DNA from: a virus | Reading direction: 5' to 3' (one strand) | Length of the DNA: 24,622 bases | Virus record (IMG/VR): IMGVR_UViG_3300020220_000314 | Span: 1-24,622 of that record | In this document: in pieces, positions 1,360-6,723 of the stretch | Layout: each line of letters opens with the position of its first letter | Numbering within the stretch: position 1 is the stretch's first letter | Translations under genes and position numbers: made by a program | The notes under the pieces: generated by a model | The model's input: only the letters and a program-made list of their open reading frames with translations | Database searches by the model: none | What the model was told of the DNA's origin: nothing

Positions 1360-2448
1360 ATGGAAAATCAGGAACCAGATTGGGGCGGAGGGGCCGATCC
1401 GGATGAATTCGGTGGTCCTGGCCCAGCATTAAAAAACGTAGACTATCCCACTGATGCAGTTCAACCCAGGACGTATGTTCGGGCGTCGGGTGGTATCGAT
1501 GATTTCCTGAGCCATATTCGGGAACGAGGGACCGCGAAAACCAGTCATTTCGATGTGGGGATTAGTGTTCCGACATTACTCCTGCAAGATAGTAGTGGTA
1601 AATTTCAAGGTAATTTGCCCAAGGCGCTCAAGTTTCGTTGTGAGACGGCTGAAATTCCAGGTCGCCAAATTGCCACCACGGATAATAAGATTTTTGGTCC
1701 GATCTATAAAGTTCCGTATACGACAATTTACGCAGAAATGACCATGACGTTCATTGAAGTTCAGGATATGTTGATTCGGAAATTCTTTGAAGCCTGGGCT
1801 GATATCATTTACGATTCTCAGGTGAACATGGCTAATTATCCCGATGATTTTAAGCTCGATATATTTGTTACCCAGTATGATACCACTGGATTCCCGGGTG
1901 CTCTGAATCCAGTGCTGAAATGTAAATTGATCGGGGCGTTTCCGACCAATATCAATCAACTGACTGTCAACTGGGCTGATGATTCCTTGCATAAGCTCGC
2001 GGTGACATTCTTTTATGAGCGATATGAAATAATGGAAGATGAAATGGAAGAGCCCATGTTCATTCCATTCACTGAGGATGATTTGATCCCGTATGTCACC
2101 AATGATACGATGATCGAATTGCCAGAGGATGAAAAGCTGAACGACATCCAACTCAATTCTGGCGAACGAGCCAATGAGGAAATCGCCAAGATTATGATTG
2201 AACTGCCAGAAAATGCCAAGCAGAACGATGAACAACTCAATGGCATGGAACGAGCCAGGGCTGAACTAAAGAATCTGAAAGGCAAGGATTCGGGACTATT
2301 GGGTATCATTAAACGATTGAGGGGATTGAGTGGCGGTGGTGAATTCGGAACACTAGATTTCCCTTCGTTTGATCCCAAGACCCTTCTACGAAAAGTTGGT
2401 CTTCCAGTACCTGATCTTATTGGTACCACGAATGTTCCTAAACCCTAG
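1360..2448 (+). CDS. Baseplate tail-tube initiator, gp54-like (tail-tube fold)
   Basis: 362 aa, starting 3 nt after the previous stop, with AAGGAG at about 1341 as ribosome binding site. After an acidic, Gly-rich N-terminus, residues 45-60 (GIDDFLSHIRERG) and about 60-235 form a gp19/gp48/gp54-type tail-tube domain. Visible landmarks are FRCETAEIPGR, IFGPIYKVPYT, a YAEMTMTFI strand, EAWADIIYD and a DIFVTQYD strand. Known role of the family: it sits on the baseplate hub and nucleates the tail tube. The C-terminal 120 residues are an acidic extension with an internal 28-residue duplication (251-274 and 279-302), a Gly-rich hinge near 325 and a Pro-rich end. It could instead be the tube protein gp19, but it is about twice as long as gp19. 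Stop codon is TAG. Confidence 0.7.
   Translation: MENQEPDWGGGADPDEFGGPGPALKNVDYPTDAVQPRTYVRASGGIDDFLSHIRERGTAKTSHFDVGISVPTLLLQDSSGKFQGNLPKALKFRCETAEIPGRQIATTDNKIFGPIYKVPYTTIYAEMTMTFIEVQDMLIRKFFEAWADIIYDSQVNMANYPDDFKLDIFVTQYDTTGFPGALNPVLKCKLIGAFPTNINQLTVNWADDSLHKLAVTFFYERYEIMEDEMEEPMFIPFTEDDLIPYVTNDTMIELPEDEKLNDIQLNSGERANEEIAKIMIELPENAKQNDEQLNGMERARAELKNLKGKDSGLLGIIKRLRGLSGGGEFGTLDFPSFDPKTLLRKVGLPVPDLIGTTNVPKP
2110..2265 (+). repeat. Internal 28-residue (84-nt period) duplication in the gp54-like gene
   Basis: Two copies at 2110-2181 and 2194-2265 encode M-I-E-L-P-E-x-x-K-x-N-D-x-Q-L-N-x-x-E-R-A-x-x-E. Their DNA has diverged, so the duplication is old and probably selected at protein level. 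Confidence 0.8.
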
Positions 2449-2464
2449 ATGATGAGGTGATTGA

Positions 2465-3187
2465 ATGAGTTTACCACAAATAACTGTTCCAACGTACGAG
2501 ATTACATTGCCCTCGGGTACGGAGGTTACGCACCGGGTTTTTCTGGTCAAGGAAGAAAAGCTGCTACTGATCGCACGGGAGGCCGATGATCCTGAAACGA
2601 TTGTCAATACGGTCAAGCAGGTTATTCAGAATTGTATCGTGAAAGGACCAGCGGTTGATGATTTGCCGATCTTTGATACCGAGTATTTGCTGCTCCACCT
2701 TCGGGCTCGATCCACAGGAGAAGTATCAACACTTCGATATCGGTGCGTCAACAAAGATACCGAGGGCAAGACCTGCGGAGAAATTTCTGAATACAAAATC
2801 AATTTGCTCGAAGTGGTTCCAATAACATTTCCGTCTCATACAAAAAGAATTATGCTGACTAATGATATCGGAGTCATGCTGAAGTATCCAACAATGAAAT
2901 CGTTTTACAAAATCTTACAGCACGGATTAACTAGCACCGATATCATTCCCGTGATCTTGCAATGTATTGATTCGGTCTTTGACGACAGCACCGTTCAGAA
3001 AACAGAGGGGGTGCCGCAAGAAGAACTTCTGAACTTTATCGAATCTCTGACCGCTGAACAGTTAAGTCGGATGGATAAATTTTTCGATACCATGCCAAAG
3101 ATTGAGTATACAATTAATTTTCACTGTCCGAAATGCGGATTTAAGCAAGATATTGTGGTTAGAGGCATTGTCGATTTTTTCGGCTAA
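2465..3187 (+). CDS. 26: Baseplate hub protein gp26
   Basis: 240 aa (T4 gp26 is 208 aa). The N-terminus (MSLPQITVPTYEITLPS, then FLVKEEKLLLIA and IVNTVKQVIQNC) is the hallmark of gp26. Two cysteine pairs, C94/C104 and C221/C224 (CPKC), look like a four-Cys zinc site. In T4 gp26 is needed for assembly of the central hub of the baseplate. The start at 2465 has GAGGTGATTGA ahead of it. The last codons read GAT TTT TTC GGC TAA, placing an exact X-XXY-YYZ slippery heptamer (T TTT TTC, 3175-3181) in the gp26 frame two codons before the stop. A -1 shift there would extend the protein by 63 residues into the next ORF. Confidence 0.88.
   Translation: MSLPQITVPTYEITLPSGTEVTHRVFLVKEEKLLLIAREADDPETIVNTVKQVIQNCIVKGPAVDDLPIFDTEYLLLHLRARSTGEVSTLRYRCVNKDTEGKTCGEISEYKINLLEVVPITFPSHTKRIMLTNDIGVMLKYPTMKSFYKILQHGLTSTDIIPVILQCIDSVFDDSTVQKTEGVPQEELLNFIESLTAEQLSRMDKFFDTMPKIEYTINFHCPKCGFKQDIVVRGIVDFFG
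3175..3181 (+). promoter_or_regulatory. Programmed -1 ribosomal frameshift site (T TTT TTC)
   Basis: In the gp26 frame codons 3176-3178 and 3179-3181 are TTT and TTC, preceded by T at 3175. This is a canonical slippery heptamer. After a -1 slip the next codon is CGG at 3181 and the frame stays open to the TAA at 3370-3372. The -1 frame is closed upstream by a TAG at 3160-3162, so it opens only just before the slip site. A small hairpin lies at 3221-3240. Confidence 0.75.
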
Positions 3188-3372
3188 TTTTTGGTTATGA
3201 TACACTGGAGAACTATTTTCGGACCAATTTCGCATTGGCCAAGCATCATGGATACTCCATTGGTGAATTAGAGAATATGTTGCCCTGGGAACGAGCGGTC
3301 TATGTATCATTGATTACACAGTATGTTCAAGAGGAAAATGAGCGCATTCAGGCCAAACGACGTAAGAGATAA
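3181..3372 (+). CDS. -1-frame ORF after gp26, expressed probably as a gp26 fusion (tail-assembly chaperone-like)
   Basis: 63 residues from the slip site to the stop at 3370-3372. The content looks like a real, selected domain: an aromatic/charged helix (YDTLENYFRTNFALAKHH), then SIGELENMLPWERAVYV, then a Glu/Lys/Arg-rich helix ending KRRKR. I recall short proteins with the same HxYSxxELExMxPxER pattern beside gp26 in other T4-like phages. There is no ATG in frame before the middle of that conserved motif, so independent initiation would delete most of the domain. The predicted fusion is 302 aa (239 from gp26). Many tailed phages make such a -1 fusion of a tail-assembly chaperone just before the tape-measure gene, and the next gene here is tape-measure-like. 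The chaperone role is inference. Confidence 0.7.
   Translation, partial: RLIFGYDTLENYFRTNFALAKHHGYSIGELENMLPWERAVYVSLITQYVQEENERIQAKRRKR
3221..3240 (+). other. Small hairpin 40 nt downstream of the slippery site
   Basis: CCAAT and ATTGG pair around a TTCGC loop, extendable by GG/CC across a bulged A. It lies farther from the slip site than the usual 5-9 nt, so a role as frameshift stimulator is uncertain. Confidence 0.35.
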
Positions 3373-3374
3373 TC

Positions 3375-5609
3375 ATGCCAGAAGAAAAACCGAAAATCGT
3401 TAAGCTCGATAAAGAAACCAAGGCACAGGTTCTTGGTGCCCTGACTGGCATCTCTACACTTCTAAAAGAGAAGAAAGAGAAACCAGTTAGTATTGCCGAC
3501 AAAATGAGTGAGAAAATTCGCCAGGATCCATCGAGGGGGGTATTCTCGGCATTAGGAGCATCTGTGCGGGAGAAAGCTGGCGAGGGGCTAGAGGGACTTA
3601 AAAAGAAACTCGATCCTGTTAATATGATGGAAAGTCTTACTGGAAGCAAGTTGGCAGGAACACTTACCGCGAAAGCATTAGGAAGATTGAAAGCTCCTGA
3701 GCCTGAGGATGAACCAAAAACTGAACCTGAGGCTCTTGATGGTTCTGGTGGATTGGGCGGTGGGGCGGCGCTCGATCACATAGCCTCGACCCTTGATGTC
3801 ATTGCCATTCGTGTTGAAGGTATTGCTAAAACAATGGGAGCCACCAACCCCGCTGAATTTGATGAAAAGGCGATGCGATGGAGAGGTGCTGGTGGAAAGT
3901 TCGTCAGTAATGAAGAGGGTGAAACTGAATTTCATATCGCCAAAACACTTGATAGTATTAAAAGCACTCTTGATAAAGGATACAAAGAGGAGCATGACGA
4001 AAGAACCAAGAAAGATGCTGCCTCAGGAGAAGACCTAGAAACATCCCTCGAAGCTGGAAGAAAAAAATCGGGCTCTCTTACTCCTGAAAAAGTGGGTGCG
4101 GGCGATAAAGACGGTAAGAAGAAGGATGAAGAAAAATCCCCATTCGCAGCCTTTACGGGATTACTCGGTGGAATTGGAGAATTGGGTGCCGCACTGGGCG
4201 GCAAAAAGCTTTTAGGTGGATTATTTGGTAAGGGCGGTGCTGAAGGCGCCGAGGCTGCTGCTAAAGGTGGTGCTGAAGCTGCTGCAAAGGGTGGTACTAA
4301 AGCTGCTGCAAAGGGTGGTGCTAAAGCTGCTGCAAAGGGTGGTGCTAAAGCTGCTGCTAAAGGTGCTGAAAAAGCTGCAAAGACCGCAACCAAAGAAGGC
4401 ATCAAGAAAAAAATAGCCAAGGTCATTGCTAAAAAAGTTCCAAAGGCACTGTTAGGTGCGATTGGTAAATCCGTGCCTTTGCTGGGCGCGGCGGTCGGAT
4501 TGGGAATGGCAATGAGTCGTCTGGTTGAGGGTGATCTTTTTGGTGCTGGACTTGAAGCTGTATCTGGTTTAGGATCGGCCGCGACAGCTATTCCAGCTAC
4601 GATAGCTGGACTCGTGCGAGATGTATACACTGAAGTCTATGAAGTTTCACCTGAAAGTGATCCGGCTGTTGGAGAACGAATGTCCGAATTGAAACAGATG
4701 GTGGAGGACTCGGCTACAGATTTTCTTCAGAATAAAGGCGAAAGCGCGAAGGCACCAACTGAAGAGCCTGCTCAAGGTTCTCCTACGCCAACTGAAGCGC
4801 CAACTGAAGCGCCAACTGAAGAGTATGCTGAAGATATGGACTTTCGTACGCCAACTGGACAGCCCGCTCAAGATTCTCCTACGCCAACTGAAGAGTATGC
4901 TGAAGATATGGACTTTCGTGCGCCAACTGGACAGCCCGCTCAAGGTTCTCCTACGCCAACTGTACAGCCTGAACAGCCCGCTCAAACTGCTTTGGCCCCC
5001 ATTCTACCCCCATCCGCCCCGACGAAATCACTGACTCCTGTTCAAGAGAGACTAATGCAAGAACGAGCCAAACAAGTTCTAGATGCCCAAGCTCGGGGAG
5101 GGCGGGGACTAGCTGAACAGCCTGTACAGCCTGTACAGCCTGGACAGCCTGTACAGCCTGAACTTCAGGCGCCACCGCCCGCTCAAGGTTCTCCTACGCC
5201 AACTGAACAGCCTGAACTTCTGACGTCGGAGCAGCGGGCCGCTGAAAATGCTGCATACGGAGACAAGCTGGACAAACTCAGGGGATTGGCCATGTGGGAT
5301 CAAACACCCGGTGTACCTCGATCACAACGACCTCCTAAAGGAGAGGTCCTCCCGTCGGTTAAAAAAGCATTGGACGAACGAGCCCAAATGCTCACAAATA
5401 TCAGAAATAAGGGGGCACAACTCGATCAGGGTTCACGCGAGTTGAGTGCTGAAAAAGAAGCGAATGCGGCGGGGCCTGTCGTCAACAATATCACGAATAC
5501 AACAAACAACAATTCCCCCAAAACTACGGTGATACCTGGAATGCCTGGGACTAGAACTGAAGAAACGACCTGGCTTAGCGCGAATCGAGAAAACTCATGG
5601 GGAGACTGA
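3375..5609 (+). CDS. Repeat-rich virion protein, tape-measure-like (possible gp29 counterpart)
   Basis: 744 aa. Residues 1-130 are Lys/Glu-rich and probably helical; 250-290 are Gly/Leu-rich; 293-332 contain five 8-residue Ala-Lys-Gly repeats. About 355-420 is the only hydrophobic region (ALLGAIGKSVPLLGAAVG, then GDLFGAGLEA), of a kind common in tape-measure and hub proteins. Residues 455-610 are Pro/Gln/Thr-rich with 24-residue repeats. The C-terminus has an Asn/Thr-rich NNITNTTNNN stretch and a short tail (RTEETTWLSANRENSWGD) similar in style to tape-measure C-termini. It is the largest structural gene here and directly follows gp26 and its frameshift ORF, the usual place for a tape measure. 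T4 gp29 is about 590 aa, and I see no direct gp29 motif, so it may be another virion protein. It starts 2 nt after the previous stop. Confidence 0.65.
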   Translation: MPEEKPKIVKLDKETKAQVLGALTGISTLLKEKKEKPVSIADKMSEKIRQDPSRGVFSALGASVREKAGEGLEGLKKKLDPVNMMESLTGSKLAGTLTAKALGRLKAPEPEDEPKTEPEALDGSGGLGGGAALDHIASTLDVIAIRVEGIAKTMGATNPAEFDEKAMRWRGAGGKFVSNEEGETEFHIAKTLDSIKSTLDKGYKEEHDERTKKDAASGEDLETSLEAGRKKSGSLTPEKVGAGDKDGKKKDEEKSPFAAFTGLLGGIGELGAALGGKKLLGGLFGKGGAEGAEAAAKGGAEAAAKGGTKAAAKGGAKAAAKGGAKAAAKGAEKAAKTATKEGIKKKIAKVIAKKVPKALLGAIGKSVPLLGAAVGLGMAMSRLVEGDLFGAGLEAVSGLGSAATAIPATIAGLVRDVYTEVYEVSPESDPAVGERMSELKQMVEDSATDFLQNKGESAKAPTEEPAQGSPTPTEAPTEAPTEEYAEDMDFRTPTGQPAQDSPTPTEEYAEDMDFRAPTGQPAQGSPTPTVQPEQPAQTALAPILPPSAPTKSLTPVQERLMQERAKQVLDAQARGGRGLAEQPVQPVQPGQPVQPELQAPPPAQGSPTPTEQPELLTSEQRAAENAAYGDKLDKLRGLAMWDQTPGVPRSQRPPKGEVLPSVKKALDERAQMLTNIRNKGAQLDQGSRELSAEKEANAAGPVVNNITNTTNNNSPKTTVIPGMPGTRTEETTWLSANRENSWGD
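4251..4370 (+). repeat. Five 24-nt tandem repeats encoding (A/E/K)AAAKGG-type units
   Basis: Unit pattern is aaa-gct-gct-gca-aag-ggt-ggt-gct. Units three and four (4299-4346) are identical in DNA. The array encodes an Ala/Lys/Gly helix-like linker and could change copy number by slippage. Confidence 0.85.
4812..4955 (+). repeat. Two 72-nt direct repeats in the Pro-rich C-terminal part
   Basis: Copies at 4812-4883 and 4884-4955 are nearly identical and encode a 24-residue unit containing PTEEYAEDMDFR and PTGQPAQ. A third, truncated copy begins at 4956. High DNA identity points to a recent duplication. Confidence 0.9.
5118..5160 (+). repeat. 9-nt tandem repeats encoding QPV/QPG units
   Basis: The unit cag-cct-gta recurs with one gga variant, giving a short Gln-Pro-Val run. 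It is a low-complexity linker inside the 744-aa protein. Confidence 0.8.
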
Positions 5610-5625: not shown

Positions 5626-6723
5626 TTATTCAAATAGAGATTCCAGGGCCTTGCTATTCACGAATCGATCTATTCCAGGCTCTGCGTTCAGTTCATTCCA
5701 TTTCTTACCATCCCACCAACGTCCCACTTCTTCATCTTTCCAGAGTTTGTAGTCGCATCGTGAGAACGTGATATTACATTTCGCGCAAGCATAGGACGTA
5801 TCGGCTCTGTTCTTTTGGCGAAGACGACGACGAACTCGCTGCATCTCCTCCCCAAACCAAAACTTCTTAAATCCAGGTATGCCATCATTCACTGTTCCAA
5901 ACTTGCCACGTGTGACCTGAAGCCCATCTTGGCAGCACAGAAGATAATTACCGCTGGCCGAAACTGTGGCATAGAGAAATGGCTGATTGCACCGACGAGT
6001 CAGCGGCTTACCCAGTGGCTTCATGCCAAATTGTTTCTGAGCATCACCACGTTCCCAATTCATGTTCCCATACCAATTACCCAATAGTCCCGCTTTCAAT
6101 CGAGACTTCGGCCACGTAGAGGGCTCGTCCATCAGAACAATCATTTTCAAATCAGGACCCCAATACTTCCAGGGCGTGGGTGCATTCTTCGGAGCATCAT
6201 AGTATTGATAAAACGGATAGCCGCTTTCATACGCTAGTTGCTCATATCGGGCAGGATCGCCGTATTGATCGACATAGAGAACATTGGCTCCTGCATCAAG
6301 CAGCGCCTTCATATTCACGGCTCCTGTTAAGAGTTTTGTGCCATTAGTGGTAATTTGAATTTGTGTCTGCGGTGCCAGTGATCGTGCAATTGGGAGCAGG
6401 CGTGTCAGTTCAGGATTGAGCGTGGGCTCTCCGACATATCCGCACAAATCCACTCGGACCGTGGGTGATATCTCATTCAGAATAGAGAATGCAGAACGCC
6501 ACGTTTCCTCGGTCATCAACTGATTATCGGATTTCGGAATAAGGTCAGCGCAACAATGGGCACAAGCAAGATTGCATCCAAACGCAGGTTCAATACTCCA
6601 CACAAGAGGTGTCTGTGAACCAAGCGGATGAATCTTTTTCGGCTGTTTCACCTTCAGAAACGGTGGGCTTTTAAGTTTTGATTTCGATCTGATCGTTGCA
6701 AAGAGTTTGAGTTCTGTAGCCAT
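5626..6723 (-). CDS. Radical SAM protein with SPASM-like C-terminal cysteines
   Basis: 365 aa from ATG at 6723, with AAGGA 8 nt upstream. The radical SAM [4Fe-4S] motif CxxxCxxC is at C50, C54 and C57 (GCNLACAHC). A GEP motif follows (CGYVGEPTLNP), typical of the SAM-binding barrel. The C-terminal third has a second set of cysteines: RRCNQP, NYLLCCQDG, and YACAKC followed by FSRC, which resembles a SPASM/twitch auxiliary cluster domain. Such enzymes modify peptides, proteins or RNA; the substrate cannot be told from sequence. It is convergent with the structural operon (16 bp between the genes) and is the last gene of the gp32 transcript, from which it is separated by a strong stem-loop (6750-6802). 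No precursor-peptide gene was recognised next to it. Confidence 0.85.
   Translation of the reverse strand: MATELKLFATIRSKSKLKSPPFLKVKQPKKIHPLGSQTPLVWSIEPAFGCNLACAHCCADLIPKSDNQLMTEETWRSAFSILNEISPTVRVDLCGYVGEPTLNPELTRLLPIARSLAPQTQIQITTNGTKLLTGAVNMKALLDAGANVLYVDQYGDPARYEQLAYESGYPFYQYYDAPKNAPTPWKYWGPDLKMIVLMDEPSTWPKSRLKAGLLGNWYGNMNWERGDAQKQFGMKPLGKPLTRRCNQPFLYATVSASGNYLLCCQDGLQVTRGKFGTVNDGIPGFKKFWFGEEMQRVRRRLRQKNRADTSYACAKCNITFSRCDYKLWKDEEVGRWWDGKKWNELNAEPGIDRFVNSKALESLFE

Follow-up and report, generated by a model that had tools for sequence, protein, structure and literature searches.

The window, by which we mean the whole stretch of 24,622 nucleotides that was analysed, is an IMG/VR virus record in which Pfam and PHROG profile searches identified a set of T4-like genes: head-closure nuclease, DNA end protector, tail tube, gp26, single-strand binding protein and helicase loader. 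The features in and around the gp26 gene are as follows.

1360..2448, plus strand: tail-tube-like gene directly 5' of gp26 (phrog_45, 1.8e-34)
2465..3187, plus strand: gp26, short form, 240 aa, T4_baseplate family (PF12322, 9e-59; phrog_150, 3e-60)
3161..3165, plus strand: AGAGG, Shine-Dalgarno-like putative internal stimulator, ~10-14 nt 5' of the slip site (anti-Shine-Dalgarno duplex -5.8 kcal/mol)
3175..3181, plus strand: slippery heptamer T TTT TTC, X XXY YYZ pattern, in gp26 phase
3181..3372, plus strand: -1 frame, gp51 domain of 63 residues plus stop (phrog_634, 1.5e-25; C-terminus of phrog_150, 4.9e-7), proposed to be read only after slippage
3182..3240, plus strand: possible downstream stem, 3182-3188 with 3234-3240, with inner hairpin (-14.1 kcal/mol, z -2.06)
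3185..3187, plus strand: 0-frame stop TAA that terminates the short form, read from the sequence
3375..5609, plus strand: gene that follows, 744 aa, rich in repeats and with hydrophobic stretches (weak PHROG match only, 'peptidase', 8.5e-4)

The gp26 open reading frame carries a CPKCG zinc-ribbon-like motif at its C-terminal end and closes with the codons GAT TTT TTC GGC TAA. The heptamer is thus in the phase suited to simultaneous slippage and is separated from the stop by a single GGC codon, confirming the original prediction, made from the letters alone, of a T TTT TTC in the gp26 frame just before its stop. An independent metagenome contig is identical to positions 2465-3372 base for base, and a read error is therefore unlikely. 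The number of TTTTTTC heptamers in the window was also considered as evidence and was rejected, as the 10 occurrences are at chance level (8.7 expected); what exceeds chance, to judge from the homologous sequences, is the conservation of the heptamer at this gp26 site and not its mere presence. The -1 frame is closed upstream by TAG at 3160-3162, is open from 3163 and continues to 3372 with TAA at 3370-3372, just as had been predicted. The predicted lack of an early start codon was borne out as well: before the core of the domain ends, the only ATG, GTG or TTG codons in this frame are TTG at 3235 and ATG at 3277, both inside the conserved domain, and none precedes the former.

When the 63-residue segment was searched against phage proteins, it matched phrog_634 ('baseplate hub assembly catalyst', gp51; 1.5e-25) as well as the final 50 positions of phrog_150, the gp26 family; the Pfam scan of the domain gave weak matches only, such as DUF6760. 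The two frames of the locus therefore divide between the two families, the 0-frame product matching gp26 (9e-59 and 3e-60) and the -1 segment matching gp51, and these matches identify the segment as T4 gp51's C-terminal domain. T4 gp51 itself (249 aa) matches phrog_150 over its full length (1e-87), whereas T4 gp26 matches over the first part only; T4 gp26 and gp51 are therefore paralogues, a short and a long form. The 302-aa frameshift product of the window, assembled in silico, aligned to T4 gp51 with no gap at the junction, where VDFF is followed by RLIFGYDTLENYF in the window and VDVF by KLLVNPDEIFTFY in T4 gp51. On this alignment, T4 gp51 is itself a fusion of gp26 and the gp51 domain, and a paralogue of T4 gp26.

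In order to follow the site through its relatives, 111 distinct homologous junctions were collected, 105 of which had the gp51 domain in the -1 frame. At these gp26 3' ends both the slippery heptamer and the -1 gp51 domain are conserved: T_TTT_TT[C/T/A] was present in 104/105 distinct -1 junctions, usually 10 nt ahead of the gp26 stop, and the following base was C in 77, T in 24 and A in 3. Among 33 further loci, taken later from MAG contigs, 32 had the heptamer. All 102 of the Phe-Phe sites at the junction were T_TTT_TTY, where synonymous usage predicts 45.5 (an unconditional test; codon statistics conditioned on the T-run were set aside), whereas just 8 of 119 Phe-Phe pairs elsewhere in the gp26 genes took this form; the loci share ancestry, so that junctions are not independent events and probabilities computed from them overstate independence. 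An ATG within -8 to +25 of the gp26 stop was absent in 75/105 junctions and present in 30, and in 34/105 there was no ATG, GTG or TTG in this interval. Homologues with a conserved ATG and ribosome-binding site for the small frame, and no slippery site, would have spoken against the original prediction; the relatives instead keep the heptamer and do not keep a start codon.

Coding constraint was assessed in 52 loci whose first six codons include no start codon and whose first 15 include no ATG. After the slip, the -1 frame contained no stop in any of the 52, whereas the other two frames contained stops in 50/52 and 51/52, respectively, and the synonymous fraction of single-base codon differences was 0.387 in the -1 frame, versus 0.213 and 0.103. 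By these measures the -1 frame is constrained as coding directly after the slip site even where any start codon is lacking, a pattern which fits translation beginning at the slip site and not at an internal start.

These data bear on the possibility that gp51 is translated separately, with ribosomes re-initiating, or being translationally coupled, at a start codon close to the end of gp26. An ATG does overlap the gp26 stop (at -1 or +2) in 20/105 junctions, and several database records annotate gp51 from near-junction starts. We nonetheless hold separate translation to be improbable as the general explanation: most junctions lack an ATG, about a third lack every one of the three start codons, and the window has none before 3235; the T-run occupies the place needed for the Shine-Dalgarno sequence of such an ATG; constraint on the -1 frame is already seen ahead of any start; and T4 gp51 is covalently fused. 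In addition to the frameshifted fusion, some phages could make free gp51, as suggested by the 30 junctions where the gp51 frame has an ATG close to the stop.

Frameshifting at the heptamer would be helped by elements on both of its sides. Across the family, anti-Shine-Dalgarno pairing is strongest, at a mean of -6.2 kcal/mol, in 9-mers whose first base lies 15-16 nt 5' of the heptamer; in the junction set the best upstream pairing, with the element 10-16 nt upstream, beats synonymous recoding (z -10.7). The 45 nt 3' of the heptamer fold better than their shuffles (mean z -1.49 +/- 0.19, versus +0.09 +/- 0.10 for control windows); for the window alone the downstream fold is weak to modest, 4/200 shuffles being equally good. 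An Rfam search at the junction returned nothing beyond one sub-threshold chance match. The combination resembles the E. coli dnaX -1 frameshift, in which A AAA AAG, with a Shine-Dalgarno-like element about 10 nt upstream and a downstream structure, gives a shorter product; slippery heptamer, upstream element and downstream structure are alike, and gene and purpose differ. Slippage of RNA polymerase on the T-run, yielding edited transcripts that encode the fusion, could be argued from the runs of 7-8 T in some relatives and from one locus with 9 T in which the two parts are fused. Yet most sites have six T and then C, which is short for polymerase slippage, the X XXY YYZ phasing is kept in nearly all loci, and the Shine-Dalgarno-like element and downstream structure indicate ribosomes; transcriptional slippage is thus very improbable. 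A third alternative, an untranslated -1 remnant or a single gene split by a sequencing error, could appeal to the frequent omission of the segment by annotation pipelines, but it is contradicted by the identical second contig, the conservation in >130 loci and the coding constraint, and is extremely improbable.

We reasoned that the gp26 gene very probably yields two proteins, gp26 and a -1 frameshifted gp26-gp51 fusion; the original prediction of a programmed -1 frameshift joining gp26 to a 63-residue domain is strongly supported by the comparative evidence. Most ribosomes would terminate at 3185 and release gp26 of 240 aa. A minority would pause on T TTT TTC, aided by the upstream Shine-Dalgarno-like AGAGG and probably also by downstream RNA structure, whereupon both phenylalanine tRNAs would move back one base and translation would continue into the 302-aa fusion. 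The fusion would be the equivalent of T4 gp51, a gp26 paralogue with the same C-terminal domain in one frame, and the short and long forms would probably serve the tail hub and the tape measure protein as assembly chaperones, like lambda G/GT. The sequence elements, their conservation, the coding constraint and the homology to T4 gp51 are observed; slippage in the cell, and its rate, we infer.

The frameshift arrangement was found in Kyanoviridae, Cinqassovirus (Aeh1), Angelvirus, Cronobacter phage S13 and Schizotequatrovirus, and also in pf16, Cr30, phiM12 and Stenotrophomonas phages; in Aeh1, the -1 gp51 domain follows T TTT TTC. Representatives of Tevenvirinae, Twarogvirinae, Krischvirus, Tulanevirus and Slopekvirus have a two-gene layout, in which gp26 is without heptamer and without -1 domain. 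In T4 the homologous proteins, gp26 as the short form and gp51 as the long, are encoded by separate paralogous genes on opposite strands, and T4 gp26 carries G TTC TTT and lacks the -1 domain, whereas in Klebsiella phage Matisse (Slopekvirus; L122:1501-2795) the long (gp51) and short (gp26) paralogues stand in tandem on one strand. Since T4 gp51 is a fused paralogue that aligns without a gap over the junction, most sampled T4-like phages would make their short and long forms by frameshifting. The distribution points to frameshifting and two separate genes as alternative routes to the same short/long pair; a direction of change between the one-gene and two-gene layouts is something we could only infer, without tree reconstruction.

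Several loci depart from the common pattern. At L015:1998-2867, the fused locus mentioned above, gp26 and gp51 lie in one frame by virtue of one extra T (9 T), which is either genuine or a homopolymer error. In Ackermannviridae and Vibrio phage K397 (L034, L128, L129 and L037), the gp51 domain lies in the -1 frame behind a non-canonical N NTT TTC and lacks a conserved start, and a contig in a Robiginitomaculum bin (L156) has G TTT TTT at the site. In a phage recorded as infecting Streptococcus agalactiae (L039:1135-1884), the -1 frame of a gp26-like gene yielded no gp51 domain.

Sullivan et al. (2010) reported cyanophage gp51 at ~20% length and gp51 missing in Aeh1 (PMC3037559). A gp51 that is the frameshift tail of gp26 would explain both the short cyanophage gp51 and its absence in Aeh1; with T4 gp51 as the long gp26 paralogue, this puzzle is removed. 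Under the same reading the long and short products would be two versions of a single hub/tape-measure chaperone, and annotations in many marine phage genomes would be corrected. No report of a gp26/gp51 frameshift was found in a literature search that included frameshift papers; as most subscription journals were outside its scope, priority is not established.

P2 E/E+E' and Mu gp41 (Pfam Phage_TAC_7) are examples from contractile-tail phages of a frameshifted chaperone gene that precedes the tape measure gene; a Pfam scan of gp26, in contrast, gave no match to Phage_TAC_7. PMC5009743 attributes the conserved -1 frameshift in tail assembly genes, lambda G/GT included, to Xu, Hendrix and Duda (2004). 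As in lambda, the short reading frame ends in a slippery heptamer and the long form carries a -1 domain, and the small gene comes after a tail-tube-like gene and ahead of a large gene that may be tape-measure-like. Unlike lambda, the protein family is that of T4 gp26/gp51, outside the known tail-chaperone families, and here a Shine-Dalgarno-like stimulator is conserved.

Regarding function, PMC3004832 places T4 gp26 and gp51 among the hub assembly chaperones, and in the record of one Acinetobacter phage both are named tape measure protein assembly chaperones; a chaperone role is therefore likely, though inferred by analogy, for gp26 and its fusion as for lambda G/GT. A PDB sequence search with gp26 and T4 gp51 gave no match. 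Two AlphaFold2 models were confident (pLDDT 88.5 and 90.2), and Foldseek with them returned no structure at or below the E threshold of 0.001; the highest-probability PDB match in both searches (0.44) was 2ob9, the HK97 tail assembly chaperone, at a non-significant E of 1.2-1.6. Of the proposal that gp26 and its fusion are the T4-like equivalent of lambda G/GT, the frameshift layout thus held, whereas homology to a chaperone did not reach significance (HK97, E > 1).

The gene at 3375-5609 occupies the position of the tape-measure-like gene in relatives; a nearby downstream gene is annotated as tape measure in Cr30 and is tape-measure-like in phiM12, and in S-BM3 there are weak tape measure profile matches. 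Its product is a possible tape measure or hub protein. The 744 residues include low-complexity alanine/glycine/lysine and proline/threonine-rich repeats with no family match. Directly after this structural block, in the opposite orientation, lies a Radical SAM domain gene (5626-6723, minus strand).

In 21 bacterial loci (L165-L183, L187 and L192), mostly from the phylum of a Chloroflexi MAG, DUF6760 was observed after a gp26-like gene with a CPxCG zinc ribbon. Wherever this pattern was found DUF6760 was in the -1 frame (21/21), G-rich sites (G GGG GGG/GGA or G GGG GAA) lay near the stop, and about half of the loci were without an ATG, GTG or TTG start. One bacterial gp26-like protein matched Phage_TAC_7 weakly (E 0.055). 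Profile comparison of the phage and bacterial proteins supported the zinc-ribbon part only (E 1.4e-4, probability 52) and did not support a link between DUF6760 and gp51. We regard it as possible, if on balance somewhat doubtful, that the gp26/gp51 frameshift layout is general to contractile machines, including bacterial loci that resemble contractile injection systems, where frameshifting may likewise produce a short and a long chaperone; alternatively, the bacterial G-run might serve coupled genes as a ribosome-binding site. At L166, where the neighbours were scanned, contractile-sheath and tail-tube genes lie upstream.
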